From Linum tenue (Eukaryota; Streptophyta; Magnoliopsida; Malpighiales; Linaceae), in contig CAMGYJ010000008.1 of the NCBI GenBank assembly GCA_946122785.1, positions 19,431,475-19,495,474 of the forward strand: 64,000 bases of DNA. Direction: 5' to 3'. The notes below the pieces were generated by a model. That model did no database searches. It was not told where the DNA came from and saw only the letters and a program-made list of their open reading frames with translations. Positions within the stretch are counted from its first letter, which is position 1. Each line of letters starts with the position of its first letter. Positions 7,213-46,041 of this stretch are shown here, piece after piece. Both the position numbers and the translations under genes were made by a program.

Positions 7213-9828
7213 GATCATCCCTACCAAAGTTACCATGATCCACATTCCTATTTTCAGTACCAAGAGCAAGGTGAAGGTCATCATCAATCTTTCCCGTCAT
7301 ATGAAGAAGAAGTTCAATCGGACCTCCCCAACCAAACTCAGTACAACTTCCAATCAGGCAGTGGTAGTTTCCACAACTACCATTACGGAGCTGATGAAGG
7401 TGCCTTTCATGAACTGGATCAGATGGAGGATGTCCTGCCAGCACCAGTCAGTGACCCCTTCGATGAAGAAGGAGAGAACAACGTCAGTGCAGACAACTCC
7501 GACCCTCTTGAAGGTGCTGATGATTCAGGACCAGAGTCAGACTCAGCTAATGATGATGAGGTGGCTCGTGACCGTGTACCAGTCCCCTACTACAATCACA
7601 TTCCAGACGACAATTGGATGGTCGACAATGACATGTAGCCGCCAGAGGTCCCAATGTGGGATCCACTCACTGGGTTTATGAAGGGCCAACAATTTGGCTC
7701 GAAGAAGGAGGTGCGGCACGCCATTAAGACTGAAGCAATGACTTGGCATTTTGAATGGCATACAACTCATTCCAACACTAAAAGGCTCATAGTCAGATGC
7801 CGTAATCATCACGAGGGGTGCAATTTTAGGATTCGGGCCATCAACAGCAAGGGACACGGCCACTGGGTCATATCCCGTGCGGTGAACACACACACATGTG
7901 TGTCATCCATAACTTCCCAAGGCCATCGACAGTTGAAATCCAGGGTGGTTGCTGCGGCTATCAAGCACCTAATTGAGCAAGATCCGGACCTGAAGGTGAA
8001 AGTCATAATCGCTGTCATTGCAAGTCGTTATGGTTATACGATTAACTATAAGAAGGCGTGGCATGGAAAGCAGAAAGCTCTGGCCGCCGTCTTTGGTGAT
8101 TGGGAAGAATCGTATGCATTCCTTCCCAGGTTAATTTTGGCATTGGAGGCGTCTAATCCTGGCACGGTTTTCTCCCCTCGATACCAAGATGAAGAGATAC
8201 AACCCCCAGAGCCAGGTAACAAGCGCCATTTCAGACGACTTTTTTGGGCATTCAAGCCAACTATTGATGGTTTTGGCTTCTGTGTCCCTGTGATCCAAGT
8301 GGATGGTACATTCCTTACCGGCAAGTACAAGGGCACTCTCTTGATTTCCAGTGGGGCGGATGCAAACAGAAAAGTCTTTCCTTTATCCTTCGCCATTATT
8401 GAGGGAGAGAATGCTGATAGCTATGGATGGTTTTTCCGGCAAATTCAAATCCACGTCACTAGGAGGACGAACCTGACAATAATCTCTGATCGGCACGCCG
8501 ACATTAGGGCTGCCATCTTGGGTTTAGATCCAGCCTGGAAGTGGTCCCAAAGGTGGTGCATACGACACTTCAAGAGCAACTGGAACCATCATTTCAAGCG
8601 GAAGAAGCTTGCTCATAATTTGTGGTGGATTGGTAAGTTCTCTATTAGCCATTTAATTTTGTCAGTTAACAATATCTTATAATTAGAAGAGTAGTGCACT
8701 TGTTAGACTCTTTCTAAAGAAATGCATGCCTAAGGAAATGGGGTTTTAAGCTATTATCATGGTCCTCCCATTTCCTGGGAAAATCGGGTTTTAAGCGATC
8801 TTCGGATCCCCCCTTTTTCTGTCAAACAGGCTGTGTTTCTAAGGAGATGTATACCTCTCCTAAGAGTCTAACGAGTGTACCTATGGGTTGTTCAAATTGT
8901 ACTAAACTGCCAATAATTGACTAACGTACTATTTTTCTGTGTCTTCCTCAACGGTTGCCTACCAAGAGAAAAAATTTCTGGAGAAAATGCAGAAGCTGCG
9001 CGAGTTGTGCCTTGAAGGCGCACAGTGGCTGGATAGACACGACCTATCCATGTGGACATTTCATAAAGATGGAGGTACAAGATGGGGTATTGCCACGACG
9101 AACTCAGGTGAGAGTATCAACTCTGTCTACAAGGCCGTTCGTGCACTGCCAATCTCTGCCATTGTGGAGATGACTTTTTGGAAAACGAATGCATGGTTCG
9201 TCAACCGACACCACTGGGCAAGGACGAACGAGGCACAGGGAAAGGTCCATGCCTATAAAGTCATGGAAGTAATGGAGAATGACAATCGCAAGAGCAGTCG
9301 ACATAGTGTAACCGTTATGAATCGGGCAAATGGCGAGTATAGCGTGACGACCGGACATCGGGAGGATGGTAGACGGGGAGGCCACCGCCATGAAGTTTTG
9401 GTCAATTTCAGGACCAAAGTTGGTGAGTGCTCATGCCAGAAGTATCAGGGGAGAGGGTGGCCTTGTTCTCATGCAATGGCCGTAATTAAAAAAAGGAGCA
9501 AAGACCCCGTCACTTCTTTAGTCCATTCTTCAATATCGACTCACTCAAAAACACCTATGGACGAAGTTTCCTTACATTGCCTGATGAAGCTTATTGGCCG
9601 CTGTATGAAGGAAAATAGATCACCCCGCCATTCGGACAGAGGCGTGAACCGGGTCGCCCGAGGAAAAAGAGAATTCATAACGAAATGGATCAAAGTGGAA
9701 GACCACCATGAGTCCCAAGACGATGTTCAATATGCAAAGTTCCAGGACATGATAAACGAAGGTGTCCAGGACCGAGTGGTCCGCAAAATCTGGGTGCTGA
9801 TGTGCCAAACTCAGCGAATGCGACATAA
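7213..9828 (+). pseudogene. MURA-like Mutator transposase, decayed
   Basis: The frame is open from the LTR junction, with an acidic, Tyr/Gln/His-rich N-terminal part to 7635. It meets TAG at 7636-7638 and continues in frame. The MuDR DNA-binding region with Cys/His residues is at about 7690-7920. The MULE transposase core has Asp codons at 8302 (VIQVDGT) and 8488 (ISDRHAD), 62 residues apart. A phase-1 intron runs from GTAAGT at 8633 to AG at 8966. Exon 2 holds a SWIM zinc finger (Cys 9428, Cys 9434, Cys 9464, His 9470). A frameshift near 9520-9535 moves the C-terminus into another frame. That frame has stops at 9616 and 9709 and a perfect C-X2-C-X4-H-X4-C knuckle at 9724-9765, ending at TAA 9826. 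The protein would cut and join MULE ends. With a lost 5' end, three stops and a frameshift it cannot be active as it stands. Confidence 0.85.
8697..8877 (+). repeat. 181-bp foldback (MITE-like) in the MURA intron
   Basis: The ends CACTTGTTAGACTC and GAGTCTAACGAGTG are inverted copies of each other. Imperfect pairing continues inward for some 40 bp. A homologous 181-bp copy lies in the PMD gene region at 18494-18674 in the opposite orientation, so both are sense with respect to their own gene. No clear target duplication is visible. Confidence 0.7.
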
Positions 9829-9892
9829 TTTGCGATTATCATTCTTCAAGCTAGTTGTAACTCTTACGTTGTATTTAATTGTGTATTTTTGA

Positions 9893-22683: not shown

Positions 22684-22822
22684 GAGCCACCGTCTAGCTA
22701 AGACGTAAAAGAAGCGCTTGTGGGGAGGCAACCCCACCAAGGTTTGTTTTTCTTTCATTTGTTTTTTTTCGGTTTGTCCACTTGGAACTATGGTTTCTAT
22801 CACCCAGTGTGTTTTGCTGATG
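22684..22822 (+). other. Post-ORF box and start of the noncoding region
   Basis: GAAGCGCTTGTGGGGAGGCA lies at about 22712-22731, as after pol in Athila elements (148-167). The element therefore joins a gag-position ORF directly to post-pol sequence, which fits an origin by loss of pol. Confidence 0.7.
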
Positions 22823-22900
22823 CTAGCTGTAACATCCCGAACCTTTTCCCGACAAGATACTGTCCGCTTTGGGCCTCTACACCCGCACGGTTTTCGAGTT

Positions 22901-22983
22901 GGGGTGCAATTCAGGGTGACTTCCCGTAAGGTCACCCATCCTTGTTGTGCTCCGCACCGAGCATGTTTAACTTCGGAGTTCTC
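22901..22983 (-). repeat. 5S rRNA-derived block in the left TRIM LTR
   Basis: On the - strand it reads AGAACTCCGAAGTTAA, later GGATGGGTGACC, GGGAAGTC and TTGCACCCC. These match the plant 5S gene from the A-box through the C-box to the 3' end, with changes between. It is not a 5S gene because the 5' third is absent. Confidence 0.9.
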
Positions 22984-23172
22984 ACAAGAACTCCTCCATT
23001 ACACCCCAAAACGCGTCTTGTCAGTTAAGGCCGGTTTCCTACTTATGAACCATGGATCTCTCCCGTGCTTTGTCGATGTGGGATTTGCCTAAGGTGTTAC
23101 ATACACCCCCCCTCGGGACTCAACGCCCTCGTTGAGGTTTGCCCCACCATCGTTCAAGAGGGACGCGGAGAG

Positions 23173-23184
23173 GCTCTGATACCA
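23173..23184 (-). promoter_or_regulatory. TRIM primer binding site
   Basis: TGGTATCAGAGC on the - strand lies 2 nt inside the right-hand (5') LTR. It fits initiator tRNA-Met. Confidence 0.9.
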
Positions 23185-23259
23185 CTTGTAACATCCCGAA
23201 CCTTTTCCCGACAAGATACTGTCCGCTTTGGGCCTCTACACCCGCACGGTTTTCGAGTT

Positions 23260-23342
23260 GGGGTGCAATTCAGGGTGACTTCCCGTAAGGTCACCCATCC
23301 TTGTTGTGCTCCGCACCGAGCACGTTTAACTTCGGAGTTCTC
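23260..23342 (-). repeat. 5S rRNA-derived block in the right TRIM LTR
   Basis: Same block as 22901-22983. It has one transition in the A-box region (GAGCACG against GAGCATG on the + strand). Confidence 0.9.
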
Positions 23343-23490
23343 ACAAGAACTCCTCCATTACACCCCAAAACGCATCTTGTCAGTTAAGGCCGGTTTCCTA
23401 CTTATGAACCATGGATCTCTCCCGTGCTTTGTCGATGTGGGATTTGCCTAAGGTGTTACACTAGCCCCGCTGACTGGTCCACTTCCAGTC

Positions 23491-24448
23491 TGATATGATC
23501 CCAAATGGGCCATTATACACGTTTAATTTACTTGACGATGAAGCTATCGAAGTTGGGAAGAAGAAGGGCAGAATTTGGCCAAGTCAAAATCCGTGTTCAG
23601 GGTACATACTTTGGAGGCATGGTTCTGTCAATTGGATTAGTGGAAATTCAACATTAAGGGTTTCTTTTACAGACAAAGTTGCCATGTTTCCAATTGTATG
23701 CTTTGTGTATCCAGATGATATCATTAAGGTTGTTTTCCAAGGCCTCAAAGTTGCTACCTCAAAACTGGAAAACTGCCAGAAAATGACTAAGGCAGAAAAC
23801 TGTTATGTGAAGCCTACTTTGGAGCTCAATTCAAGGAGCATGGATGGGATTCAAGTCAAAAGGCTTCCACAACATGAAACTAGGTATGTTTGTGAACAAA
23901 GGGAAGGAATTGGATGAAGGATTGGAGTTCGGGAAGGCCTCGAACAAAAGGCGCGAAGTTAGTACGAAAGCTGCCTTTTGACTGTTTTGCGGGCAGATTA
24001 CTTGTGCGCCAAGAAAGGAAGTTTATGGCCGAATTTTGAGTTCTTTTTAGAGTTTGTTTTTACCTTAATTGTTTCCTTTTTCATCTAGATTCGTATTAGG
24101 TTTTATTGGCTATAAATAGCCCTCCATTTACGTTGTAAAAACAGAAGACTTTGATTAATCGAAATTGAGAACCGTTTGGTTTGTGCAAGTTGCGACTTGT
24201 TTTGGGTTTGGTGGATTCCAAACTTGCTGAGCTTGTGTATCGATTGAATAGTCACTTCAATCGTGGTCGAGCAACTACCCTTTTATACCAATCGAGCTAT
24301 CCCCAGGTGTGGATTTGTCCTTTTGGTTCCGTTTTATCCAAGTTCGTATTAAGAACGCTTCATTCTTGATTCGAGCTCAATCGAGTCTTCGATTGAGTCG
24401 TTAGCTGCGTGACTTTGATAACATACACCCTCCCAGGGGCGTATTAAG
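23491..24448 (+). repeat. Left LTR-like arm
   Basis: It begins TGATATG after the TSD. The 3' border before the primer site at 24449 is not certain because no clean CA end is visible near GTATTAAG. TATAAATA lies at 24111. It contains a 140-codon ORF (23495-23917) of unknown meaning. Confidence 0.7.
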
Positions 24449-24589
24449 TGGTATCAGAGCCCCGTTCAACACAAGGGCAAGAAGGAGATCAAGAAACCTG
24501 TTTTTTTGTTCGTTCTGTTTTCTTCGCGGAAAGAAAACTGAGAGGAGGATTCTTATTCGAAGAAGAAGACCCAATTCGCAGAAGAGACG

Positions 24590-25096
24590 ATGGGAACTCT
24601 TCAAATTGACATGGAGGAATTGAAGCAGATGCTCACAGACGCGTTTAACGCGACCTTCCAGCCAAAATTCGATCGAGTTTCTCGTCAAATAGATGAGCTT
24701 GCGTTGATGAGAAACAACACAGCTTCGACGCCAAGTTTTACAGTACGTAATCCGATTCTACAAGGGAATCGAGACCAAGACATTGTAATAAGACCTATCC
24801 ACGACTTGGAAGAGAGAGCTAGGAGTTTGGAACGACGAACGTTGGCATCCTCGAGAGGTTCTGTTTCTTCGCGGACAGAAAAGGCTCCCCCTCTTCAAAA
24901 AGCTTTGCCCTCAAAGCTTGTTCAGGATGCTTCTCAAAATCTTCACAAAATTGATCCCAAATTGGATCGAAAGAAAACGACTCAAACTCCAATTTCTGCA
25001 AAACTGAGAAACTGTTCTCCAACAACGAAATTGGGGCTTTTTGATTCAGGCACTTTAAGACCAATTCGTCGATGCCAAGCTCTTGTAAAGGCTTAA
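24590..25096 (+). CDS. gag-like ORF start in the left arm, truncated
   Basis: The first 80-90 residues (to about 24858) are the same as the N-terminus of the ORF starting at 26024 on the other strand. They include M-E-E-L-K-Q-M-L and a Q-I-D-E-L-A-L segment that looks like a coiled coil. After 24858 the frame enters the unique centre, which belongs to the other strand's ORF, so the tail to 25096 is probably not a natural protein end. Confidence 0.5.
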   Translation: MGTLQIDMEELKQMLTDAFNATFQPKFDRVSRQIDELALMRNNTASTPSFTVRNPILQGNRDQDIVIRPIHDLEERARSLERRTLASSRGSVSSRTEKAPPLQKALPSKLVQDASQNLHKIDPKLDRKKTTQTPISAKLRNCSPTTKLGLFDSGTLRPIRRCQALVKA

Positions 25097-26024
25097 AATT
25101 GAATTTTCGAACCCTTTCCCAGTCTCGAATCGTCCCCTTCGCCTTCGAATCAACCAGACTTTCCTTCCTGCCGTTGTCGGAATTCAAACCCAGATTTCCA
25201 AAGTCGAATTTGGGGTTTTTCAATCCAAGCATGTTCGAGTCGAATTGGAGGATCCTACACGTTCCTTTCATCCCCATGAATGATTCTGCAGTCCGTAATT
25301 GGCTTGATTCGAGCTGATTTGCTGTACCCACGAGAGGGTTCTTGTCGGCCGTTTGCCTCACGAACAGAGGTTGTTTTACACGAATCGATTCTCCAATTCC
25401 AGGTCTGTCCATCTCCAATGAAGTATCTTCCAACGTTTTTTGGGTCGTGGGGATCGTTTTGGCACTAGTGGCGAAGTTCGAATCTTCGCCGATCTCTACG
25501 ACGAGGTCGCCCTCTCTCCTGCTCTGTTTTCTCATGTTCAGGGGCATTGCTGGTCGATCTCGATTCTGCAGTTGGTCTTGAATCGACGCAAACCACTCCA
25601 GGGTAAATATTCTTGATGCTACCTGGACTATGTCTTCACTGGTGGTGTGGCTCGACTCTTCCCCTAGCTCAGCATCGACTTGTCCAGGATGTGGACTCTG
25701 TTTTGACGAAGGAAAACAGAGGTGATGAGCGCCGGTGGACGTTTGGACGGGAATGCCTTTCGAGGATGCCAACGTTCGTCGTTTCAAACTCCTAGCTCTC
25801 TCTTCCAAGTCGTGGATAGGTCTTATTACAATGTCTTGGTCTCGATTCCCTTGTAGAATCGGATTACGTACTGTAAAACTTGGCGTCGAAGCTGTGTTGT
25901 TTCTCATCAACGCAAGCTCATCTATTTGACGAGAAACTTGATCGAATTTTGGCTGGAAGGTCGCGTTAAACGCGTCTGTGAGCATCTGCTTCAATTCCTC
26001 CATGTCAATTTGAAGAGTTCCCAT
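24819..26024 (-). CDS. gag-like ORF crossing the unique centre
   Basis: The 401-codon ORF begins after the right primer site in the gag position. Residues 1-90 lie in the repeated arm and the rest in the unique centre. The last 13 or so residues run into the left arm, antisense to the other gag-like start. The N-terminus is a predicted helix with charged repeats. The middle has Ser/Thr/Lys-rich low complexity, and the end has a Phe/Glu-rich stretch near 24950. There is no CCHC knuckle, protease or RT. I assign it to gag by position only. The whole frame being open argues that the centre is oriented with the right arm. Confidence 0.55.
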   Translation of the reverse strand: MGTLQIDMEELKQMLTDAFNATFQPKFDQVSRQIDELALMRNNTASTPSFTVRNPILQGNRDQDIVIRPIHDLEERARSLKRRTLASSKGIPVQTSTGAHHLCFPSSKQSPHPGQVDAELGEESSHTTSEDIVQVASRIFTLEWFASIQDQLQNRDRPAMPLNMRKQSRREGDLVVEIGEDSNFATSAKTIPTTQKTLEDTSLEMDRPGIGESIRVKQPLFVRQTADKNPLVGTANQLESSQLRTAESFMGMKGTCRILQFDSNMLGLKNPKFDFGNLGLNSDNGRKESLVDSKAKGTIRDWERVRKFNFKPLQELGIDELVLKCLNQKAPISLLENSFSVLQKLEFESFSFDPIWDQFCEDFEKHPEQALRAKLFEEGEPFLSAKKQNLSRMPTFVVPNS

Positions 26025-26165
26025 CGTCTCTTCTGCGAATTGGGTATTCTTCTTCGAATAAGAATCCTCCTCTCAGTTTTCTTTCCGCGAAGAAAACAGA
26101 ACGAACAAAAAAACAGGTTTCTTGATCTCCTTCTTGCCCTTGTGTTGAACGGGGCTCTGATACCA

Positions 26166-27123
26166 CTTAATACGCCCCTGGGAGGGTGTATGTTATCAAA
26201 GTCACGCAACTAACGACTCAATCGAAGACTCGATTGAGCTCGAATCAAGAACGAAGCGTTCTTAATACGAACTTGGATAAAACGGAACCAAAAGGACAAA
26301 TCCACACCTGGGGATAGCTCGATTGGTATAAAAGGGTAGTTGCTCGACCACGATTGAAGTGACTATTCAATCGATACACAAGCTCAGCAAGTTTGGAATC
26401 CACCAAACCCAAAACAAGTCGCAACTTGCACAAACCAAACGGTTCTCAATTTCGATTAATCAAAGTCTTCTGTTTTTACAACGTAAATGGAGGGCTATTT
26501 ATAGCCAATAAAACCTAATACAAATCTAGATGAACAAGGAAACAATTAAGGTAAAAACAAACTCTAAAAAGAACTCAAAATTCGGCCATAAACTTCCTTT
26601 CTTGGCGCACAAGTAATCTGCCCGCAAAACAGTCAAAAGGCAGCTTTCGTACTAACTTCGCGCCTTTTGTTCGAGGCCTTCCCGAACTCCAATCCTTCAT
26701 CCAATTCCTTCCCTTTGTTCACAAACATACCTAGTTTCATGTTGTGGAAGCCTTTTGACTTGAATCCCATCCATGCTCCTTGAATTGAGCTCCAAAGTAG
26801 GCTTCACATAACAGTTTTCTGCCTTAGTCATTTTCTGGCAGTTTTCCAGTTTTGAGGTAGCAACTTTGAGGCCTTGGAAAACAACCTTAATGATATCATC
26901 TGGATCCACAAAGCATACAATTGGAAACATGGCAACTTTGTCTGTAAAAGAAACCCTTAATGTTGAATTTCCACTAATCCAATTGACAGAACCATGCCTC
27001 CAAAGTATGTACCCTGAACACGGATTTTGACTTGGCCAAATTCTGCCCTTCTTCTTCCCAACTTCGATAGCTTCTTCGTCAAGTAAATTAAACGTGTATA
27101 ATGGCCCATTTGGGATCATATCA
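26166..27123 (-). repeat. Right LTR-like arm, inverted
   Basis: It mirrors 23491-24448 base for base apart from scattered substitutions. The same 140-codon ORF is at 27119-26697, also uninterrupted. Confidence 0.7.
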
Positions 27124-27128
27124 CAGTC

Positions 27129-27504: not shown

Positions 27505-28923
27505 TGATAGACCGTTATTTACACATGTTTTTACCCCTGCTCTTACTCCGTTTGAGGTGTTGATTCTCGTGTTTTAGGCCGATTTCACGCTAGGTTGTGC
27601 TTGTTTGTGATATTTCAGGTCCTAGTACGTGAATGGAGGCTTGGGAGCGAGTTTGGGGTCGATTGGACGAGGATCGGACGCATGGCGAGGTTCCAAGGAG
27701 GCTGCACGGCCAGACCAGGGAGACGCACGGCCGTGCAAAATGCAACTTTGGCCGTGCGCCTTATGCCGAGGGCGTGCACGGGCAGCCCTGAAGAGCTGCA
27801 CGGCCGTGCACCTAAGCTATATGGCCGTGCGCCTCTGGCCGAGGATGTGCACGGGCTGGCCGGGATCCTTGCACGGCCGTGCACCTGGCCGTGCAAGAAG
27901 GCTGAGATCGATTAAGTGAAACGGCGCGTTTTAGGGTGCACGGCCAGAATGGTGATGTGCACGGCCGTGCACCCCTGGCCGTGCAACTCGGGGAGACCCG
28001 GTTTATAAGCGGATTTCGAGCCAAATAGAAGGGGATTCGAGTTTTAGAGAGACAGAGCGATTCCTAGAGAGAGAAAGCGACGAACAAGAGCCTCCAAGTG
28101 CCCTAGATCGATCTTCAACACCATTGGAGCTTGGTTTGAGCTTGGAGAAGTGCCGATTCAACGTCCAGGAGCAGAAATCCATCTTCACAGTATGATTTCC
28201 GCGTCTGATTCTGCTTTTGCTTCTTTCTCCATGGAGTAGTTCTCCCATTCATCTGGGTGTGGGAAACCCTAGTTCTGTATGTTGAGATTGATTGTATGAA
28301 CCCAAGTACTGTTTCTATGAATTGATTATATTCGATTGAGGTTTGAATGATTGAATGACTTGAATCCTGATCAAATTCCTGTTGTTTCTGCTTTAACCTA
28401 GAATGATAATATCTGCCTAGGTTGATAGAGTATCCTTAATCGAAGGTAGTGAATTGGTGACTTTAGTCGAGGAGCCAATCATTATTCTGTACCGAATTCC
28501 ATTCGGTAGTGGAGGTTTTGTTCATAGGGCCTCAATCTGTTTACTCCGGTGTAGGTTAGTCGCCAGCTAGAGACTCAGATTGAGAGGGTCTGAAGACCTT
28601 TAGTCGAGACTTCAGGCTATTTGAGAACCTTCCGCAGTGTAACTTTCATAGAAATTGAACTTGGTAATTACAATCCGGCTTAACTGCAGACTAGGGGGAA
28701 CCATATCCGGGTGACCTCTCTTAACCTGAATACAAATGTTTAGTTGCTTTGCTTGCTTGTTAGTTTAGGCCTTCACTAAAGTTTCATTGCTAGATAATAC
28801 GAATTCACTGAGTAGTCAGCACATCTAGGACCCGGGTTGACATTGAAACCCAAACCCGCTATACTACGCTTTAGGAAGTGGTTACACTTGGCCATTTTCT
28901 AGAGTGACAGTAGGAGTGAGTCA
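27505..28923 (+). mobile_element. Solo LTR with mosaic structure, TSD TTTAT
   Basis: TTTAT flanks it at 27500-27504 and 28924-28928. The empty site is visible at 3219-3240 of the Athila element. The left 500 bp follow family A (TGATAGACCG and on, compare 19975 and 30164). From about 28010 the sequence follows family C (compare 6300-7210) up to the shared end GGAGTGAGTCA. A TATA-like TTTATAAG lies at about 28001. CACGGCCGTG palindromes are numerous at 27700-27975. Confidence 0.92.
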
Positions 28924-30163: not shown

Positions 30164-31508
30164 TGATAGACCGTTAATTACACATGTTTTTACCCCCGTT
30201 CTTACACCGTTTGAGGTGTTGATTCTCGTGTTTTAGGCCGATTTCACGCTAGGTTGTGCTTGTTTGTGATATTTCAGGTCCTAGTACGCGAATGAGGAGG
30301 CTTGGGAGCGAGTCTAGGGTCGATTGGACGAAGATAGGACGCGTGGCGAGGTGCCCAAGAAGCCGCACGGGCAGAGCGGGGCATCACACGGCCGTGCAAC
30401 TGACAATTGTGGCCATGTGATTTCCGCCGAGAGCAAACACGGGCAACTCAGGAAATCCACACGGCCGTGCAACCCTAGCCGTGTGAGATGGCTGAAGATC
30501 GAACTTAATGGTACGCTGCATTTTGACTCGCACGGCCAGTTGGGTGAGCCACACGGCCGTGTGGCCTGCCCGTGTGAGTCGGGAAACTCTAGTTTTTTAG
30601 CCAATTTCGAGCCAAAGAATCGGATTTTGAGAGCAAAAACAGAGCCCTAGAGAGAGAAAGTACGAAGAACACATCCTAGAAGCTATCTTGGAGCTGGGTT
30701 TCATCGAATCGAGCTTGGAGATCGTCATAGGAGTGGAAATCATCATCCCGGAGCAGATTTTTCCTCATCATTATGAGTATGACTACTCTGATTACTGTTT
30801 TCTCTTCTCTCTCTATGGAGTAGAACCCTTCTCTCACTTGGGTATGAAGAACCCTAGTTCCTTGTGTTAGGGATTTGATTGTAATGACTTGGGATGATAT
30901 TACTGTTTGATTTTAATCGAATGATGCATGTTTATTGAATTGATTGAAGTCTGATCAGCTTTTCTCGATTTTTGCTGCAACCTGAGATAGATAGAATCTT
31001 ATTAGGTTGTTAGAGCCTCTTCATTCGATAGTAGGAGATTGGCTATAAGAGAGTTATCCAGTTTACTGCTTTGTACTGGAATTCAATTTCAGTAGTGGAG
31101 TTCTGTGCTTATTGCTTCAGCTTTCTATCCCGGTGAAGACTAGTCGTCTGCCGGGTAGTTAGACTGAGAGGGCTTGGTCAGCTTAAGAGATTCCAAGCTA
31201 CTGTCGGATCTTCCGCAGTCTAATCAACAGTGAATCAACCCAGGGAAATTACAATTGAACCTAACTAAGGGGCTAGGGGGACTCATTCCCGAGTGACTCT
31301 TTCCTGACTTTGAAAACCGAACAATTTACTGCTTTCTTACTGCTTTTGCTTTAAACAACAATCAATCGAATTAGTTGGCTAGATAATAGACAATCACGGA
31401 GTAAGCAGTAGATCTAGACCCCGGGTTGATAATAAAACTTGCCTGTTACTGCATTCCCGGACTGCGATTACACTTGGTCGCAGTTTGGTGTTGTGTTTTG
31501 GTGTGTCA
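30164..31508 (+). repeat. 3' LTR, family A
   Basis: It spans 1345 bp, starts TGATAGACCG and ends GGTGTGTCA. It is the partner of 19975-21324. Confidence 0.93.
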
Positions 31509-31513
31509 GACAC

Positions 31514-33497
31514 GCCTTCCCATAGACAAGCCCATAGGGAGAAGCCAATCGGGTTTTTATAGGCCGTCCTATATGAGCCAAGAGCATCATCGAGCTTGGT
31601 GGACCAATCCTCGCGGGACTGATCCACCGTCTTTTCAATTATTCGTTTAAGCTCCCGGTTCGTCAGCTCGGCTTGCCCATTTGACTGGGGATGGTAAGCC
31701 ACCGACACCTGATTCTTAACACCATAGCGAGAGAGGAGTTTAGTGAATTGCCCTTGAAAATGGGTTCCTCTATCACTAATGATGGCGCGAGGTGTCCCGA
31801 ACCGGGAGAACAGCTGCTTCAGAAATGAGCAGACCCGTCTTGCATCATTGGTGGGCATGGCTTGAGCTTCTGCCCACCTCGAGACGTAGTCCACTGCAAC
31901 CAGAATGTACAGATTGCCAAAAGATGGAGGGAATAGGCCCATGAAATCGATACCCCAAACATCAAAAATTTCACAAATGACAAAAATATGTTGGGGCATC
32001 TCATCCCGGGAAGAAATGTTACCTGACCTTTGGCAGCGGTTGCACTGTCGTGCGAAGGTGTCTGCATCCTTGAAGAGCGAGGGCCAATAGAAGCCCGACT
32101 GTAGCACCTTCCGCGCTGTGCGGTTTCCTCCATGGTGACCTCCAGTAGGTCCCTCGTGGCATTGAGACAGGATGTCTCCCATCTCGTGCTCCATGACACA
32201 GCGCCGGATCACGCCATCTGCTCCGATCCTGAAGAGGTAAGGATCCTCCCAGAAGTAATGCTTCAGGTCGGAGAAGAACTTGCCGCTTTGCATGAGTGGC
32301 CATCCCCTTTGGTAGCTGCTTGCCCACCAGATAATTGGCAAAGTCAGAATCCCAAGGGACCACGTTGTCCACCAGTGTCATCGCCAGCAATCTCTCACCC
32401 GGGAAGGAATCATCAATCTCTTCCGCGAAGTTGTCCATCGGAGGGGCTTCCAACCGTGAAAGATGATCTGCAGCAACATTCTCGGCTCCCTTCTTGTCCC
32501 GGATCTCTATATCGAATTCCTGCAGAAGCAGGATCCAAAGGATGAGTATAGGCTTTGCATCAGCCTTGCTCATCAGGTAGCGAATCGCCGAGTGGTCAGT
32601 GTAGACCACCACATGGGAGAGCACCAGATAGGGTCGGAACTTATCAAATGCATACACCATAGCGAGGAGCTTCTTCTCAGTGGTGGTGTAATTCTCCTGT
32701 GCATCGTTCAAGGTCTTCGACGCGTAGTAGATGGGCTGGAAGTGCTTCTCGCGTCTCTGACCCAGAACTGCTCCGACAACATAGTCACTCGCATCGCACA
32801 TCAGCTCAAAAGGAAGAGACCAGTCAGGAGTCACCATGATAGGTGCATGGGTAAACTTCTCCTTCAGAGTCTCGAATGTAGCTGTGCACTCAGGAGTGAA
32901 CTGGAATGGTGCATCCTTCTCCAGCAGCTTGGTCAGAGGCAGGGCAATCTTCGAGAAATCTTTAATGAAGCGCCGATAGAATCCTGCATGACCTAGAAAG
33001 CTGCGAATCCCCTTCACAGAAATGGGAGGAGGTAGCTTACTGATCGTCTCAATCTTCGCGCGATCCACCTCAATCCCCTTCTTGGAGATCTTGTGCCCGA
33101 GCACAATCCCCTCACTGACCATAAAATGGCACTTCTCCCAGCTGAGTGCCAGATTAGTCTCATCGCACCTCTTTAGAACGAGTTCTCGGTTATGGAGACA
33201 ATGAGTGAAGGAGTCTCCATAAACCGAGAAGTCATCCATGAAGACCTCCATGATCTCTCCAACCAGTCGGTCGAAGATCGTCAGCATGCATCTCTGGAAG
33301 GTCAGCGGTGCATTACACAGTCCGAATGGAATTCTTCGGTAAGCAAAAGTACCGAAGGGGCAAGTGAATGTGGTATTCGCCTGATCCTCTGGTGCAATAG
33401 GAATCTGGAAATAACCAGACATGCCATCCAAGAAGCAATAAAACTCATGACCAGCCAACCTCTCCAGCATCTGATCAATGAAAGGTAGTGCCAACAC
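31514..33497 (-). pseudogene. Athila-type pol: RT, RNase H and integrase (split pol, fragment 2)
   Basis: On the - strand RT begins at about 33475 inside its palm, with L-P-F-I-D-Q, and shows the F-M-D-D catalytic motif near 33229-33243. RNase H follows with C-D-A-S-D at about 32790 and the T-T-E-K-K block near 32680. Integrase shows an H-H-C-C region at about 32150-32020 and the D, D and E motifs near 31945, 31770 and 31660. The clade call rests on the sequence style of the RT and RNase H blocks. Gag, protease and the RT N-terminus are missing because of truncation at about 33490. Frameshifts lie near 32300-32340 and at about 31540. The gene continues at 19974 after the inserted element. Confidence 0.9.
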
Positions 33498-33501
33498 GTC
33501 A

Positions 33502-36500
33502 AAATTTAATTTTTGTTTAAGATTTACAATAGTGAATCTTAAATTGTCTTATAGCTAAAATGTATAAAACGTATATATAGTGCCAACATGTCATGTTTTT
33601 CATAACTTAATGAGATTAGCAATAGCAAATCTCATTTTGTACAATTCTCATCAATGAGTTTAGCAATAACAAATCTCAATTTTTTTCAATTTGATTAATG
33701 ACTTGGCGATAATGTGAGTTGACCATTGAATTGATCCTTAAAATATTGATTCATGTAAAAATTGGACTTTGATTTCAAAACAATAAAAGATAAGTCGAAT
33801 TAAGGGCAAGAACTGGTATCTTATTAAAATAAATCACAATTACAGATATTATTACAATTATACAAAATAAAAACATTAAAACTGACAGAACCAGACCAGT
33901 TCAACCCAAAACCAAACCGGTTCAGCCCAAAAACCAAACCGGGTACTGTTGCAAACTTGGGGAACAAGCTCCCTTTTCCTATAAAAGAGCTCATTTGCTC
34001 TTACATGAGGACAGGTTTTTGGAGGAGGGCTTCTTCTCCTTCTCATCGTTCCCACAGACAGCTTCTGTTTATTTTTCTTCTTCATCTGCTTTTCTGATCA
34101 AGAAACACAAAAAGAGCAGAAACTCTGCAAATTCCAACTATCCTTCTACCTCTTTAGCCACAAAAATCCTAAACAAAGAAAGATAAAACAACAAAAGTTC
34201 CCTTTACACTTTCTCCTTCTCGCTCAAAACCCACACACAGACAGAAAAGAGAAGCCAAAATAGAGAAACCTTATCCCTTACTTCCTTTTCTTCTTCTTAT
34301 CCGATGTACACCAACACACTTCAGTCCCTTTCCTAAACACAACCAAAAACCAGAGGGAGACAGAAAAGAGAATCCAGAGCAAAGGACTGGGAGGGGCAGA
34401 AAAAAACGTCAAGCATTCACAAAACAGAAGAGGGGGACTCTTTCTGGCTGTTTCTCTTCTTCTTAACCATATTTGGCACTCTTCCTTGCTGCCTCCCTTC
34501 TTCCACTTCCTCTGTTCTTAGAAAAGATACAAACAACCTAGCAAGAGAAGCCACAAACAGAAAAACAAGAAATAAAGAACTACTTCTTTCCTTCTTCTTA
34601 GTCGACACACAGCAGAAACGAAAGAAAGAGAGAAAAAGAAACATACGAGGAGGTAGCAAACTCCCACAGAAGCTGGGCAAAAGGAGGCAGAGTCATCTCC
34701 AAGCTACAAACAATCAAAGGTTGGTAACACTGAACTCAATCATACAACTATCGTCATCAGCTTCTTCATCCATAGCAATCACTTCTTTCTAGTTATGTAA
34801 AGCTTCCAAAACTAAAACACAATCATCCCAAGCAAACTATAAGTGGACTAATTTCGTTTAAAAGATGAAGAATACTAAGCCAATCTTAGTTAAGTTGCAA
34901 CTTGATCTGAAAAGTTAAAAGGAACCAAACCCAAGCAACTCCAACCAAAGTATAAAATGACTATTTCCCAATAATCCTTATCCTTCTCTGCTTTTGTTTA
35001 TGTTATTCGCCATCTATATTGGTCATATTTTAGCTTACTTTCTTTGCTTAGTTTCTTTAAGAGGGTTGTCCTCTTATTGTTATATTAAGCTATAAAGTAT
35101 AATCCATATCTAGAACAACCAAACCACTTGGTAATCACAAGCAACAACTGTGTTTCCAGTGTAGTAATGAACTTATTTCCCCACTTTGTTAGTTTTAACC
35201 AATCAAAGAATTTTAATCACAATATTTCATCTTTTTGGTCACAAATCTATCAACCAAAACAAACAACCAAATTCAAGCTTTCAGATTTCAGGTTTCAAAG
35301 TACCAAAACCTAACCAAAAACCAAACTTAGCACCAAATATGAGTTTTAAGCCATTAATCGCCAAAACCCAAAAAACTGCCTAAATATCAGTCAACTTTCA
35401 AAACCCTAAAATCCCCCAATTTCCAGGAGCAAACTTAAAAAAGGGTAACCTACCCCATCCTGCGGCCGCCGGCATCGTCGATGGTGCTGCGACTACTCCC
35501 TCCTTCTTCTCCTCGATCAAACCCAAAGAACCCCCAATAGCCATGCATCAAACACTTATCCAAAGTCGAAATCGAACGAAACACAGACATGCAACCCAAT
35601 GATACCTACCTCCGACTATCGTCGTCACCGTCGTCATCATCTCCGGCATTGACACTCGCCGTCGTTTTGCCACGGCCGCCGTCGTTCTCGCCACTGCCGC
35701 CGTCTTTCATTTATTATTTCCTTCTCACTACCATCAGTACAGATAAAAGGAGAAGGCAAATCGCAGGAGGGGTGCATATTTCCCTTTGACGCTTGCTTTA
35801 ACAAAAAAAATGAAGAGAAGAAGAGGAAAGGGCGCTAGCCCTTCTCTTTTCTTTTTGGTTCGTACAGAGCAGAGGGAAAGAGAAAGAAACCGAGAGAGGA
35901 GGAAGCGAGGTGAGAGACGGCCACCAAAGGCCTAACTACCCGCCCAATTTTGTTATTTTTACATCCATAATAACTCAATTAACTTACCACTTTAATTACC
36001 TTAATAAATTTTGTTATTTTTACATCCATAATACGAAAAATCCATATCAACTTAACATGTTAATTTTTTAGTTTGGCTTAACTGGGATACTCTAAACATT
36101 TCTAAATATTAAAACCTTTTGAATTATTACCCTCATTTAGGCTTCTATTTTTCATACATATCCTTACTTACCTAGAAGATTTTCTTCATACGAAATCTCG
36201 GTCAATAGAACTTGATAGTCGTTCTTGTTGAATTTCTTTCAAAGATCTAACATTCAATCATTAAATTGAAACATCATAAAAACATTTCCTCAGAACTCGA
36301 ATTATCATCCAATCATCAACATTTATCACTCAAAATTACAACCCAACTACGTGGACTTTGATCCCAATTCCTCGGGTACGTAGGCAACCAATAGGTTTCA
36401 AGTCCAACTAATCAAAAACTTTCTGCACATTTCAACATGTGAGACTCAACATTTTAAAACCTATCAATTTAATCGAACTACGTGGACTTTGATCCCGACT

Positions 36501-36951
36501 ACTCGGGTACGTAGGCAACCGATAGGTTCGAGTCCAACCAATCTAAAAACCATTTTCTTACGTCAATAGACGTGAAAAATCTGTAACTTTAAATTCAAAT
36601 TTACACTAATCATATCGTCCGATTGGACTCTAAAAATTTACATTTAATTAAAAAATAATTAAAAATTACGCTTAAATACACAAATAAATCACAGTTAATA
36701 ATACACCCAACTTCTAAAAACTTATCGATTTACGTAGTACCCATTATGGGGCATTGTGGGGTGTGAATACACTTCCCCACATGTAACCATACTCCCGAAC
36801 CTAGAACAATCTAAAATTCGCAGACCAGAATTCTAGTTTTAACAAAAAAATTAAAACCGGAAAATGGTGTTCGACCCACCCCAAAGCACGGTCGATGGCG
36901 ACTCCGATCAGTTCGCGAGCTTTCCCCGATTTTCCGAGGGCGGTTGCGACA
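33502..36951 (+). repeat. LTR 1 of the LARD-like element, 5'-truncated
   Basis: It is nearly the same as 42591-46040. It contains two copies of a block with CTACGTGGACTTTGATCCC and CGGGTACGTAGGCAACC (about 36349-36412 and 36476-36540), a motif common in the LTRs of Tat/Ogre-like elements. No gene is seen. The ORFs in it are repeated only because the LTR is repeated. Confidence 0.85.
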
Positions 36952-36952
36952 G

Positions 36953-36970
36953 TGGCGACTCCGCTGGGGA
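36953..36970 (+). promoter_or_regulatory. Primer binding site, tRNA-Arg type
   Basis: TGGCGACTCCGCTGGGGA lies 1 nt after the LTR end. This is the site usual in Ogre/Tat elements. Confidence 0.85.
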
Positions 36971-39900
36971 CTTATGAGAGTCGACCTACATTAACAATCG
37001 ATAAGTATTTTCTAACTTTCTTAATGGGTGTTATGTGTTTACGATATTTATTTGCGTTTTAATTTATGTAGTATTAAAGTTATTGCATTCATGCATAAAG
37101 CTCTATACCCGAGCTCTACCTTTAGAAACTGAAAGGAGTACCGTGACTTCTACAATAGTAGAGGAATAACTCGAAACTTTCTAACCAAGTTGAACTCAAA
37201 TCCGAGGATGATTTGAGGTATCACGCTAAACTCGAAAGGGTTATAGTGTGGTACAACTTGGGAGCCAAATTCCTAGGGACTCCTATCCAGCATATAGTTT
37301 ACCTAGAAACTACTTAAAGTGCAACTTATCCCAGAGCCTACCCAAAAACACGACGTTATGCTGCCGAAAAACCCTAGGTTTACCTCAATAATTCAAAAGT
37401 TTGTGAAAGAGTTTATATTATGATAAGTTCATAACTTACTTATGTCGGATAATGTGTTTTTTTTTCAATTATTCGTGAATGATATACTTTGATTATATGT
37501 ATGAAGGAATTTTAAACTCATTACGCCATCATTTCCTCATTCATTCACATTAATCATCTAAATTTATTTTTATAAAATAGACATGCAACCACCGAAAATC
37601 ATTTCACATTTACATCATTAGCATAAGCATCAATCTCGCACATACATACCATTTAGTCACATGACAGAATTTAACATTTATAAATCATAATCAAGGATTT
37701 TCTAAAGTTGCTCATCCACAAGGACCAGTTAAACCCTTTAGTACACAACCAAATCCAATGTTGTGCTCAGTATGGAGTCAATCCATAAAGAATTGGAAGA
37801 CATCAAAAGAAGGGTTATGGGACTCGAAGACATGAAAGAAGAAGTTAGCATGATCTTGAATATATTGACCAACAAGGGGAAGACACTAGAATTGAAAGTT
37901 GATGATGTGTCATCCGATGGTCAAAACTTATTCCAACAATACGGCAAAGTGGAAACTGTAGAAGACTTCAAAAAGCATGGCAAACTTGGATAAGAGAGAG
38001 AGAGAGAGAGAGAGATTTTTATTCAAGGTGAACCATCAAAAGGAAGAAAACGGAGTCACTCCCCTAAAAAAAATCAAACTCATCCATTGTCGTACATCTA
38101 TACCAATATTACAACTTCCAAACTTCATTGTTCGATCAACTTTTCAAAATTTGTCCTCAGTATCACCAAATGTTCTCCGGAGAGACACAAATCAAATTTT
38201 ACCCTATCTCTTCCACCAATGCCAAATTTCACCCTCAATTACCCTGAAGATGCCTACACATTCCTATTTTGAGTGAGACTCTACAACCCAATATCCAAGA
38301 GGGTATAGAGCCAACAGACAATGTGATCACCATTCTAGAGTTCCGGGACACTCAGTGGAAAATTTCAATACCCTAAACACAAGGGTACAAGAAATGGTGA
38401 AAGCCGGATGCATGGTTGAAGTTCAAAGAAGAAGCCAATTGTCAAAACATCAACAAAAGCCCACTCCCAAGATCAGTTGGTAGACATACAAGGAGATAAA
38501 GCTTGATTCAAGACTTGATCTTTATCAAATAAATTTCAAGATACTTTACTTTGTTGAATCAACCTTTACTTTGATAATGAAGAATAAAATATCATTTGCA
38601 TTTCCATTCATTTGGGACATTGTGTGACTAATACCAATCTTGATCAAGGATTTTGCATAAATGATTCTTTTTCAAAATGATGATTATCTCTTCCAAATCT
38701 TTAAAATCAACTTTTCTTCTCTAAAAATGGGATCCTTAAAATGCATTTCATATTTACAAGTTGAGCCACGAGATTTTCATATCAAGCAACCATAAGCACC
38801 CCACTGGTGCTGAGTGATTTTAAACACCCTATCGGTGTCATGAATTTGAGCACTCCGCTAATGTTGAAAGCCTGCTTAGTTTACTAAACTTGAGAGTATA
38901 AACACCCCACTGGTGTCCATAAATTATGTGAGCTAAATAGTCAAAGGGTGTAACGAAGGTACGACACTAGGCTACTTTTAGAAGCTTGTCACTACCATAA
39001 CCAATCTCTACCAAAGTAGGACACAACTAGATACAAGCTCGAGTAGTCGAAGTATGATCCATAACGAGCAAGATGCCAACATATAATAGTCAAGTCCTCG
39101 TGAAACTCTCGCTTCCAGAAGACAAAGGAGTACAACAAAGACACGACATTAGTAATATGTCTCCCTCCGGAGAGGAATGTCCAAGTCTCCTAGCCAACAA
39201 GAAGGGCCACTCACATAGATTGATATACCGACGAATCTCCTAACTCTTTGAAGTTGGTGCACGAAATCAAAACAATCAAAATGACACCATGTATGGGGGC
39301 ATAACAAAGTCAAGTAACTCCCGCACAAAAAATCAAAGAAAAGGCCAAAAGAGGAAAGAAAAAAGGCCATCAAAATAAAAAGAAAAACAATGTGGGACTC
39401 ACACGTCAGATGCCCCTACAAGAGCGCTTGAAATTAAACCCCAGTCAAACTCATCACGAGTTACTAGTTATCTTTGCCAAAAGGACCAAAGGGTGATTCC
39501 AAGTATACCTTCGACGTCATCACAAGAGCGATGTAGAGTCATTCTCTCAATCAACCTGTCTACATACTCCTGCGGGGCTAGTCAAAAAATTAATCACCTT
39601 ACCGAAGGAAGGGTATATGCATGCCAAGTTTGAAGAAAATACAAGATAACCCCATTGAGAAGGATTCCCAAGAAAAGAATGTCAACATAAGCTAAAGTGC
39701 ATCCCATGATTATCCTCGTTATCCGTCATTGCAATTCTCACTTTCAAGCTAAATTAGAACCACCATGATACGAAGAATTCAACATTCATGATCACAACAC
39801 AAAGGTCTTCAACGTTCATTATTCTGTGAGCCAATGAGATGTAGAAGCCTGCATCATACCAAGACCTCCTTTATCCATTCCGTATAAGGCCAAAATATGA

Positions 39901-42532
39901 CCTCAACAATTGAGAATATTTTCATAATCCAGCTTCTACTCAAATGACCTCAGTTACTTCGCTACTCAAGCTTACCCCTCAAAACCAAAACTCCAAGACA
40001 TTGGGGGCAACATGTTTCAAGAAGAACCACCATTTTCATGGAAAATGAGACTTCATCAACGTATATTTTTTTATCCCTCAGTTAACGTCACACTTTGGGG
40101 GCAAGCCAGATCTCTTAGCAAAAAAAAACTTTACACGAGACCGCTTACCATTAGAGTCTACTAGACAGGAGCTCCTTCATGACAATTCGAGAACTTTTAC
40201 CGCAAGACCATACAAAGATCACCCATTCTCTCTATGATCAGTCTCTACCTCGAGCACATTTAACCATCAACATTGTGACCAGAATCTTGATAGTAGCCGA
40301 AGTGTCGTATACTCGGAGCACCCATAGGAATGAGTGAAAATGAAATTGAGCGTAAGAGTGAGAATAAAAGTGAGGGCTTGTGGATATTCTCATGGCTTGA
40401 TTAATGAAAAACAAATTTCTAAACAATGCGGCAATAAACACAAAAGAAATCATTTTTCTCATATTGCACACATTTCCCTTAAGCGAGGCTTAGATTTCTA
40501 AAATCAGGTTCCCATTATGCTTTTTCAACCAAGATATTTCAAAACATTATTTACATTCATTTTAAGTCAAGATTGGTGAAAGTCGCACTTTGTTTCGAAG
40601 AACGGAAGGCAAATAACATATTCTCGGGGGGCAAAAATGGTGCTACCCATAAAGAAAGAAGAAAATGGTTCTCCAAACCCCTCAAATCATGAGTAAACGG
40701 GTAATCTCAAAGATCTTGAATCATTATGTTCATGCTACCCAACCAGTCAATCAAACTATTTTTCAACGAAGTATTTTGCACCTCACACCTCCCGCGAAGT
40801 CAGTCAAGCATGTGTATAAACCGACATCAACAAGACAATATCCCGATGTGACAAATTACTCTTAGCACAACACAACATGCTTGCATGGCAAGAAGATCAA
40901 TCTAACTAAAATAACACATTATCCCCAAACTACCATGCTACAAAATCATCCTACATAACCAATTCACCATGCACATATATTGAAGATCATATGGCTAACA
41001 CATCCGCCACTCAAGCACCAGTGTCCAAGTTGGAGAAAACAGGGGACCATCCTTCCATCAGTCCCCGGGAAGTGACATACATTGGACTCACTGAACATAC
41101 AAAGAGGAAATACTAGACTGCAAGCCCATTTCCGCAAGATAATGACACGCTAAAGAAAGAATGAACCCGCCGACGACACCCATGTTACTCCTGTGCGAGC
41201 ACAACCAAGGATCAAGTTTACTAAAAGGGAATGACATATTTTCCTTGTGGATGATCGAATTAAGATAATCCATCAAAAGAAAAACAAGAAGACCATGATT
41301 AGGGATTATGCTTGTTCATTTGCATACCCTTCAAGACATCATTACATAACTCATCATACAAATTTTTCAAATGCACTTGACATACATCATATGGCATAAT
41401 TTCCGAATGCACTTCAAACTAATCATATGACATCATCCATTAGGTAGCAAATCTCAAGAAATTCATAACCAAAGTAAACATCAATAATTTTCAAAGTTCA
41501 CTTAAACTGAAAGAACATTTTCATCGACATATCTCATCATGATATTGCATCATATCATATAATCATAAACATTTGACATCACATACAAACTTTGCAAGTT
41601 CAAGTTCTAGACCTATCTGAATTTCGTCTAGAATTTCTCAATTGGTTGCTTTAACATTTTCTATCAAACATACAACTCCATGTCACCTATGATTAAGGTT
41701 TTAAACAAAAACTCTGCATATCCTCAAACATTAGAAGGCTACACTGCGAAGAAAGCTACATTGCGAGCGAAATCAATTAACACCCACAAGAAGGCTACAC
41801 TGCCAGGGAGTTAATCAGAACTCACTAGAAGGCTACACTGCAAGGGAAACCCATCAGCACCCACAAGTTGGCTACATTGCGAGGGAGCTAATTAGGGCAC
41901 ACTAGGAAGCTACATTGCGAGAAATTAATTAGTACCCACAAGTAGGCTACACTACAAGGGAGCTAATCAGGACCCATAAGAAGGCTACACTGCGAAGAAA
42001 GCTACATTGCGAGGGAAATCAATTAACACCCACAAGAAGGCTACACTGCCAGGGAGTTAATCAGAACCCACTAGAAGGCTACACTGCGAGGGAAACCAAT
42101 TATCACCCACAAGTCGACTACATTGTGAGGGAGCTAGTTAGGACCCACTAGAAGGCTACACTGCGAGGGAAACCAATCAGCACCCACAAGTTGGCTACAT
42201 TGCCAGGGAGCTAATTAGTACCCACTAGAAAGCTACATTGCGAGAAACTAATTAGTACCTACATCTAGGCTACACTGCCAGGGAGCTAATCAGTATTCAT
42301 GACACAACCACACTACGACGGAAGCCAATTGGTACCTACATCTAGGCTACACTGCAGAGGAACTAATCAGCACCCACTCCAAGACTATGCCACATGGGAG
42401 CTAATCAATGACTTCAAAACTTCCAAGAAGTTGGTTAATGCACCAAACAAAAATATCGCAATACAATTAGTAAACCGACCAAAATGGTGTGCTATGATAA
42501 CTTTGTATACCTCTTAAAAACTAAGAGATATA
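36971..42532 (+). other. Internal region of the LARD-like element, no gag-pol
   Basis: 5.6 kb without a recognisable retroelement protein. A 76-codon ORF at 37763-37993 with a heptad-like Leu/Ile/Glu pattern could be a gag remnant. It ends just before an (AG)n tract at 37993-38014. Small repeats of the form CACCCCACTGGTG occur at 38796-38915. The 3' part holds a tandem array (41735-42385). Confidence 0.6.
41735..42385 (+). repeat. Tandem array of a ~38-bp unit in the LARD internal region
   Basis: About 15 imperfect copies of a unit built on GGCTACACTGCGAGGGAGCT followed by AATTAG and ACCCACAAG, with unit lengths of 37-56 bp. Alternating units carry either GAGCTAAT or GAAACCAAT after the core, which suggests a two-unit higher-order repeat. 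The array ends about 150 bp before the polypurine tract. Confidence 0.85.
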
Positions 42533-46040: not shown

Positions 46041-46041
46041 G

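Follow-up and report, generated by a model that had tools for sequence, protein, structure and literature searches.

How does an LTR retroelement come to lie in a genome as a palindrome whose two outer ends are both the start of U3, and did this palindrome enter as one unit? These questions are raised by a locus in Linum tenue, analyzed here within a window of 64,000 nucleotides, to which all positions refer.

Structure of the palindrome

The window contains a single insertion of inverted retroelement arms, a palindrome with CAGTC at its left (23486–23490) and right (27124–27128) flanks, both unstranded. Positions 23491–24858 match 25756–27123 in inverted orientation without gaps and with 10 mismatches in 1368 nt. 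A 99% inverted match across 1368 nt is not chance. Each arm was read inward as LTR, TATA box, primer site and the start of an open frame, in the order given by an earlier note on this DNA. The left LTR (23491–24446, plus strand) has 956 nt and reads TGATATGATC...GTATTA; the right LTR (26168–27123, minus strand) is the element's true 5' LTR. Both have their U3 start outward, and both outer ends of the palindrome are the U3 start of this same 956-nt LTR. Its length was set at 956 nt because the matches of relatives stop there: 25 of 41 matches in the genome search, drawn from the best 40 of 2311 candidates, end at 954–957, and in most fetched copies a target-site duplication (TSD) or the primer site comes next.

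The TATA box TATAAAT (TATAAATAG at 24111) lies in the left LTR at 24111–24117 on the plus strand, with a mirror copy at 26497–26503. The primer-binding site TGGTATCAGAGC, which we take to be of the initiator tRNA-Met type, is found 2 nt inside the LTR (24449–24460, plus strand; mirror copy 26154–26165). With the inverted arms, the paired CAGTC and all of these inward features found again, the palindrome is regarded as real. The CAGTC TSD and the outward U3 starts on both sides also bear out the claim that a single linear DNA, bearing U3 at either end, was integrated as the whole palindrome.

The arms had been given as 1368 bp each. They are indeed inverted and of equal length, but the truly shared arm has 1364 nt (left, extra arm, 23491–24854, plus strand; right arm, 25760–27123, minus strand), as left positions 1365–1368 belong to a patch matching other elements. 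The mismatch at position 1365 was for this reason rejected as a mutation. Nine true differences are left, an arm divergence of 0.7%. At each of them one arm agrees with the relatives, and the second arm has a state present in no aligned relative. Because each of the nine is private to one arm, the arms are taken to have been identical at insertion; separate parent elements for the two arms were rejected, since the private states are absent from all aligned relatives. The other aligned LTR copies (n = 31) differ by at least 5.6% from the arms.

The inner joint

The 897-bp centre of the earlier note is no module of its own: its minus strand carries the frame of the right arm onward to the polypurine tract (PPT). 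Centre and right arm together form an ordinary 5' LTR and a whole internal region of 1285 nt (24883–26167, minus strand, from the primer side to the PPT) that ends at the PPT/U3 border. The PPT, TTTTTGAAGAGGGGGAGCC, is present at 24883–24901 on the minus strand with no 3' LTR after it. In place of the expected 3' LTR, the PPT/U3 border is followed by a 28-nt patch and then by the inverted arm, the patch beginning where the first base of the 3' LTR is expected, with an overlap of 0–1 nt. The joint was placed at this border because matches to the centre stop at 874 in 32 of the 66 non-self matches (from the best 40 of 712 candidates), at 875 in one and at 867 in four, with none extending beyond 875. 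In fetched copies that have a PPT, TGATATG comes directly after it.

The patch (24855–24882, plus strand) is identical to sequence that sister elements have in their leader, close behind the primer site. It reaches 32 nt with the adjoining TCGA (24851–24854, unstranded), which is common to the element's own gag-position region and the sister leader and provides microhomology at one switch. The 24 letters at 24859–24882 occur exactly at five other places in the genome, against none for a reversed control. All five are leaders behind a primer site, and the match there extends over 32 nt in three, 25 nt in one and 24 nt in one; the element's own leader is one indel and one substitution apart from the patch. 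Because these 28–32 nt at the inner joint derive from another element, self-priming in its simple form does not fully account for the palindrome.

The joint also bears on whether the palindrome exists in the plant or only in the assembly. Long-read libraries are known to yield false palindromes, for example through a missed hairpin adapter or a chimeric read. Such an artefact should mirror the flanking DNA, whereas here the mirror goes no further than the end of the LTR on either side, and a perfect TSD encloses it. With nine private arm differences and a 28-nt patch from elsewhere at the joint as well, an artefact of assembly or library is scarcely credible.

Rearrangement after insertion, of an ordinary element or of two opposite neighbours, is likewise very improbable. 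Inversions and deletions between repeats are frequent in plant genomes, and this counts in its favor. However, the left outer end is exactly TSD and U3 start, where an ordinary element would present a U5 end, and neither a PPT-exact joint nor a sister patch is expected from rearrangement. Two neighbouring insertions were rejected on three grounds: the chance of an equal 5-bp TSD alone is 1/1024, arm divergence of 0.7% is hardly expected when the 31 other LTR copies differ so much more, and the joint itself speaks against them.

Relatives in the genome

The genome of 692 Mb was searched with the centre and with an arm. The relatives that were examined either have LTRs in direct orientation or consist of one LTR alone, in most cases with a 5-bp TSD. 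They show the features of LTR retrotransposons, with a tRNA primer site immediately internal to the 5' LTR and a PPT before the 3' LTR. LTRs lie on the same strand in relatives L011, L012, L015, L017, L023 and L027, but not in the window copy itself. Of 11 single LTRs, 9 have an exact 5-bp TSD, as do 5 of the 9 loci with multiple LTR matches besides L011 (in the other four an end is cut, missing or diverged); one was also seen by eye at the L011 array. A fixed-length TSD of the integrase type is therefore present in relatives as well as in the window palindrome. The relatives proved to be LTR elements of the ordinary type, sharing this sort of primer site and having 5-bp TSDs, so the arms are not terminal inverted repeats (TIRs) of a DNA transposon. 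A DNA transposon with long TIRs was rejected on the primer site, the PPT, the single LTRs and the direct-LTR relatives.

A survey of LTR-primer sites was made with exact primer words only. Among the 114 listed of 155 exact sites, no pair on opposite strands lies within 10 kb apart from the window palindrome, and direct arrays were found at 7 of the 88 loci built from the first 100 primer sites. The 20 loci fetched are direct-LTR elements and single LTRs, with no other U3-outward inverted pair among them. The earlier note had offered two readings, a one-off product or a family that replicates as a palindrome, and the absence of a second palindrome among these listed sites, together with the direct-LTR relatives, argues for the former.

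DIRS elements are not known to have a TSD, and a DIRS element was rejected here on the presence of a TSD, the direct-LTR relatives and the lack of a match to any recombinase family when three kinds of frame were scanned. A palindromic family, whether DIRS-like, foldback or otherwise, would gain some plausibility from DIRS-1, in which inverted LTRs are normal according to PMC5633606. The survey would also overlook any partner whose primer word is not exact. Nevertheless, the fetched loci show no second inverted pair, nor do the 114 listed sites within 10 kb, and an RNA made from the palindrome is expected to have no 3' R. That the family replicates in palindromic form is very unlikely.

No close parent (at least 95%) that could stand as the donor was found among the best 40 of 2311 candidates. 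When the joined flanks were compared with the window in a search for the empty site, no match crossed the site; the right flank matched at ~70–85% and the left flank only within TRIM repeats. For the neighbouring TRIM-like element, an Rfam search for 5S RNA returned one unrelated match far below the cut-off.

Origin of the palindrome

The palindrome is probably a one-off, made by aberrant reverse transcription and inserted by way of its two U3 ends, as both the direct-LTR relatives and the joint at PPT/U3 suggest. One strand reads LTR, primer site, internal region and PPT, halts at the PPT/U3 border, and then continues with 28–32 nt of sister leader and the reverse complement of its own first 1364 nt. 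We infer the following path of template switches. The nascent 3' end may have belonged to a plus strand that had stalled at the PPT/U3 plus-strand discontinuity; alternatively, the plus strand may have moved over to the PPT RNA, onto the 3' end left by RNase H cleavage. A switch to a sister template, RNA or cDNA, within that particle would have allowed ~30 nt to be copied. A second switch, at TCGA, would have been followed by synthesis up to the clean end of U3 that the plus-strand primer defines, and integrase would then have paired the two U3 ends. A point against this path is that the arms were identical although the patch points to a second template, so that two copies of the same RNA, or DNA copying, would be needed.

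The patch could also be a templated filler of host end joining, which counts against aberrant reverse transcription. Two partial cDNAs from one and the same element, the first broken off at the PPT/U3 discontinuity and the second at position 1364, would have been linked through a microhomology pathway, which took ~30 nt of filler from a sister cDNA, before integrase acted on the molecule with two U3 ends. A 28-nt templated filler with 4 nt of microhomology on one side and 0–1 nt on the other resembles polymerase-theta-type joins. However, one of the ends is a landmark of reverse transcription, and the filler was taken from the leader of another retroelement, not from flanking sequence or random DNA. 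Both points would be expected more readily of an event within the particle. Host end joining is thus considered possible but rather unlikely. As a product of aberrant reverse transcription, the palindrome should be a dead end, because its transcript would be without the 3' R for strand transfer. That transcript could be a long hairpin RNA.

Comparison with known elements

A Moloney MLV provirus with inverted LTRs was reportedly integrated by two U3 sequences, going by the title of a 1988 report by Colicelli and Goff (J Virol 62:633–636). The window palindrome resembles that case, as titled, in its inverted LTRs and two-U3 integration: as for a two-U3 provirus, the host DNA meets a U3 end at either junction, and the TSD is of the integrase type. 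It differs from the animal retrovirus in being a natural plant LTR element with a PPT/U3 joint and a sister patch.

In Sabot & Schulman 2007 (PMC1950507), complex LTR insertions formed by template switching are described in Triticeae, rice and maize. These resemble the window palindrome as multi-part retroelements within one TSD, attributed to abnormal switching between two packaged RNAs, but they contain an internal third LTR shared between two cores, unlike the palindrome; 'inverted' and 'palindrom' do not occur in that text. The DIRS-1 type also has its internal region between inverted LTRs, but uses a tyrosine recombinase and a circular intermediate (PMC5633606), whereas the window palindrome has a 5-bp TSD and direct-LTR relatives. 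Mu killer of maize, a partial inverted duplication of mudrA (PMC3440606), is similar as a rearranged inverted transposon copy with a potential hairpin RNA. Its hairpin is proposed there to come from read-through of a flanking gene, whereas that of the window would use its own LTR promoters. Among titles and abstract openings in the open-licence literature, no plant precedent for a two-U3 palindrome was found, a triticale study (PMC2151762) being left aside, and passages of PMC13317346 and PMC12789967 added nothing on inverted LTRs.

If aberrant reverse transcription is the correct origin, the integrase of a plant LTR element is able to perform concerted integration on a pair of U3 ends in the absence of any U5 end, and U5 has been dispensable at least once. 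The joint would map the strand switch to the PPT/U3 border. The presence of a second element's template in the same event would bear on whether particles of plant retrotransposons contain two different RNAs. Retrotransposition itself would be one route to a long inverted repeat, a possible source of siRNA. As a single copy, the palindrome is a fossil and not a system. We give little credence to a broader joint reading, in which these elements would be prone to multimeric cDNA, their integrase would freely take two U3 ends, and the palindrome would be a natural 'killer' locus. The tendency to multimeric cDNA would follow from the direct arrays noted above together with the inverted dimer. As predicted from sequence, the killer locus would produce a hairpin RNA with a stem of ~0.7 kb from its inward LTR promoters, and siRNAs against the whole family.

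Reading frames

A 401-aa open frame in the gag position (24819–26024, minus strand) runs through the right arm and the centre. The inward open frame of the left arm begins at 24590 and encodes 168 aa (24590–25096, plus strand), consisting of the cut-off start of the 401-aa frame's protein followed by patch and antisense sequence. A further frame of 140 aa lies inside U3 (23495–23917, plus strand; mirror copy 26697–27119). Pfam searches of the window element's frames gave no domain above the cut-off, neither one from pol genes nor one pointing to Copia or Gypsy, and one sub-cut-off match of the internal frame was taken as spurious. Rfam searches of the window gave no match and a tRNA scan found none. 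In five related proteins, the Pfam scan gave only a sub-cut-off aspartyl protease, in two of the five. The source element is probably a non-autonomous LTR retrotransposon. In several Linum trigynum proteins, compared by eye, sequence similar to the 140-aa U3 frame and the internal frame form one fusion that spans the PPT/U3 border.

Structure of the palindrome

The two inverted arms (23491-24858 and 25756-27123) aligned to one another without gaps and with 10 mismatches in 1368 positions. CAGTC is present at 23486-23490 and 27124-27128, and abuts TGATATGATCCC directly on either side. The inverted arm pair described in an earlier note is thus real, as is the 5-bp target-site duplication (TSD) that the note placed around the whole palindrome; with two U3 outer ends and one TSD, its observation and main interpretation stand. 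The note also gave both arms an equal length of 1368 bp. The gapless inversion holds, but we take the true arms to be 1364 nt, with the difference at position 1365 assigned to a short patch at the inner joint (24855-24882), because this patch matches the leader of sister elements.

The right arm is colinear with the 897-nt centre, and a minus-strand frame of 401 aa (26024 to 24819) spans the two. In the relatives at C2:33.61 Mb, the matches to the arm and to the beginning of the centre lie just 5 bases apart. When the genome was searched with the centre, 32 of the 66 non-self rows listed ended at position 874 (of the 897), four stopped at 867 and a single row extended to 875, beyond which none of the 66 continued. 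We place the border between the polypurine tract (PPT) and U3 at position 874; after GGGGGAGCC, a copy at locus L011 reads TGATATGATCC as against TTTTCTGTCC in the window. Because the right arm and centre are colinear and centre matches stop at this border, we regard the internal region of the window element as complete (1285 nt), with only the 3’ LTR absent.

The internal frame matched seven proteins in a protein search, all from Linum trigynum (best identity 60%). By eye, five of the seven (P0002, P0003, P0005, P0006, and P0007) run from the internal frame through the PPT/U3 border into the U3 frame; the remaining two, P0001 and P0004, end near the border. The U3 frame of the window (140 aa, 23495-23917), like sequence to which continues the internal frame in those five proteins, had no match in Pfam.

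Relatives of the palindrome

The genome was searched with the arm and the best 40 of 2311 candidates were scored, giving 41 rows including both window arms; in 25 of the 41 the match ended at arm position 954-957. Relatives comprise 31 other sites from this list, 20 of which were examined in sequence. In these 20 loci the LTR is ~956 nt, starts mostly with TGATATG and ends with GTATTA, AG plus TGGTATCAGA usually follows directly in complete copies, and a PPT of the GAAGAGGGGGAGCC type precedes the 3’ LTR. Under a strict rule, an exact 5-bp TSD flanked 9 of 11 single LTRs and 5 of 9 loci with multiple LTR matches (besides L011). Loci L014, L025, L028, and L029 lack an exact TSD and have one end cut, missing or diverged; of the single LTRs, L024 has a repeat shifted by two bases, which is not an exact TSD, and no exact repeat was found at L016 under the same rule. 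L022 and L026 share their flanks, probably because a single event was duplicated. Since LTRs, primer site, PPT and 5-bp TSDs occur in the relatives, we assign them to an ordinary LTR retrotransposon family, which appears to be non-autonomous. The possibility that the arms are terminal inverted repeats of a DNA transposon without primer sites is contradicted by the same features, including the TGGTATCAGA primer sites.

Palindromic pairs in the genome

The exact LTR-primer word GTATTAAGTGGTATCAGAGCC occurs at 155 genome places (76 forward and 79 reverse), and its reversed control at none. The first 100 of the 155 were listed, and same-strand sites within 10 kb were merged into one locus, which gave 88 loci. 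Among these 100 sites the closest opposite-strand pair was 34 kb apart, so none fell within the 10-kb limit. A longer, window-type primer word occurs at 43 places, all listed, 14 of them new beyond the first 100; the window itself is the only close opposite-strand pair among those 14. One palindromic pair, the window’s own, was thus found among 114 of the 155 exact sites, a count that covers the unchanged primer word only, which argues against a family replicating as a palindrome. Six other places with at least two neighbouring LTR matches in the arm search (best 40 of 2311) are all same-strand: C2:33.61, C2:46.70, C3:28.92, C6:3.75, C8:73.95, and C9:38.49 Mb. Among the loci covered, the genome search with arm and centre that the earlier note proposed yielded LTR relatives in a single orientation, which supports a one-off product. 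We consider the palindrome most likely to be an informative by-product that arose once.

Same-strand arrays of 2–4 primer sites made up 7 of the 88 loci (C4:31.43, C5:37.84, C5:66.40, C5:71.48, C5:72.94, C3:9.95, and C6:2.00 Mb). Spacings are constant within some arrays (2437 three times, 2792 twice, 2968-2969 three times), and the arrays may represent either multimeric cDNA or unequal recombination. The L011/L052 array (C2:33607.5-33616.6 kb) is a direct tandem LTR-int-LTR-int-LTR-int-LTR with a period of 2392-2393; by eye, a single CCCTA TSD encloses the entire array. Pairwise divergence among three of the LTRs is 0.4–0.6%, and among the matches listed this array holds the internal sequences most closely related to the palindrome.

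Arm identity and age

Arm states were compared with 31 other LTR copies, some of which come from the same element. At six LTR differences one arm has the relatives’ state and the other arm’s state is found in none of the 31, apart from gaps at position 49 in two copies and a third state at 589 in one. At the three remaining true differences the left arm has the state of three or four internal copies. Private changes number five in the left arm (arm positions 49, 218, 589, 602, and 872) and four in the right (915, 1078, 1185, and 1340). Since no private state is common to any subgroup, we conclude from these comparisons that both arms derive from one source sequence and were identical at insertion. 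No copy of at least 95% identity was present among those scored (best 40 of 2311); the donor element is missing or lies outside these 40.

Arm divergence is 9/1364 (K = 0.0066). With substitution rates of 1.3e-8 and 7e-9 per site per year, the insertion would be about 0.25 and 0.47 million years old, respectively, although gene conversion between the arms could make this age falsely young. Against this, the single-copy centre still holds an open frame and LTR pairs in six other elements are 0–2.2% divergent, so the estimated age fits a family with recent insertions.

The inner joint and proposed template switching

The letters 24859-24882 are found exactly at five other genome places; two further places match with two mismatches, and the reversed control had zero matches. 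All five exact matches fall within leaders of other elements, after a primer site. Three of these sister leaders are identical over 32 nt (24851-24882), and the other two over 25 and 24 nt; two near-alike loci, L046 and L047, may be non-independent. The palindrome’s own leader differs from the patch by one indel and one substitution. On the arm side, TCGA (24851-24854) is common to the palindrome’s own gag-position sequence and the sister leader, and the overlap at the PPT end amounts to 0–1 nt.

During reverse transcription, the plus-strand primer at the PPT sets the U3 terminus, and a plus strand reaching the 3’ LTR meets a discontinuity at PPT/U3. By one route, the plus strand would halt at this discontinuity, its 3’ end would move to a plus-sense sister leader and then, via TCGA, onto plus-sense own sequence and on to the U3 start. 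By a second route, a plus strand at position 1364 would move via TCGA to the sister leader, then onto the 3’ end of PPT-cut RNA, from where it would return across the internal region as far as a U3 start. Both template-switch routes fit the structure as read here, with its two U3 ends, one TSD, PPT/U3 joint, sister patch and arms identical at insertion. The main rival explanation for this joint is that the host joined two partial cDNAs with templated filler. The palindrome should be a replicative dead end, because its RNA would lack the putative R at the 3’ end.

A retroviral precedent is stated in the title of Colicelli & Goff 1988 (cited in PMC5778647), which by that title is a counterpart of the palindrome. 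Sabot & Schulman 2007 describe complex three-LTR insertions with TSDs, attributed to template switching. DIRS-1 shares inverted LTRs with the palindrome but has a tyrosine recombinase (PMC5633606), and Mu killer (PMC3440606) is a further comparison case. Among the papers listed in the literature searches, titles and abstract openings contained no plant two-U3 palindrome, which is no proof of absence.

Other features of the window

At 22817-23460, a 285-nt sequence is directly repeated (98%) on either side of a tRNA-Met-type primer site in reverse orientation, which suggests a small TRIM. The repeat presumably resembles 5S rRNA, which would make this TRIM Cassandra-like; Rfam made no 5S call for it. 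Further left, MULE-type transposase frames (MULE, DBD_Tnp_Mut, and SWIM domains) lie at 7654-9892. At 31394-33497 Pfam identified reverse transcriptase, RNase H and integrase of an LTR element, encoded by the minus strand and spread over two frames. A 7.77-kb direct duplication (33500-41272 and 42589-50361; 99.7% identical, offset 9089) lies on either side of a degenerate tandem repeat (41729-42387), and a 2045-bp direct repeat, 100% identical, occupies 53664-55708 and 61956-64000, the second copy reaching the window end. Just right of the insertion is a cluster of short palindromic repeats of the TGCACGGCCGTGCA type (27700-27980).
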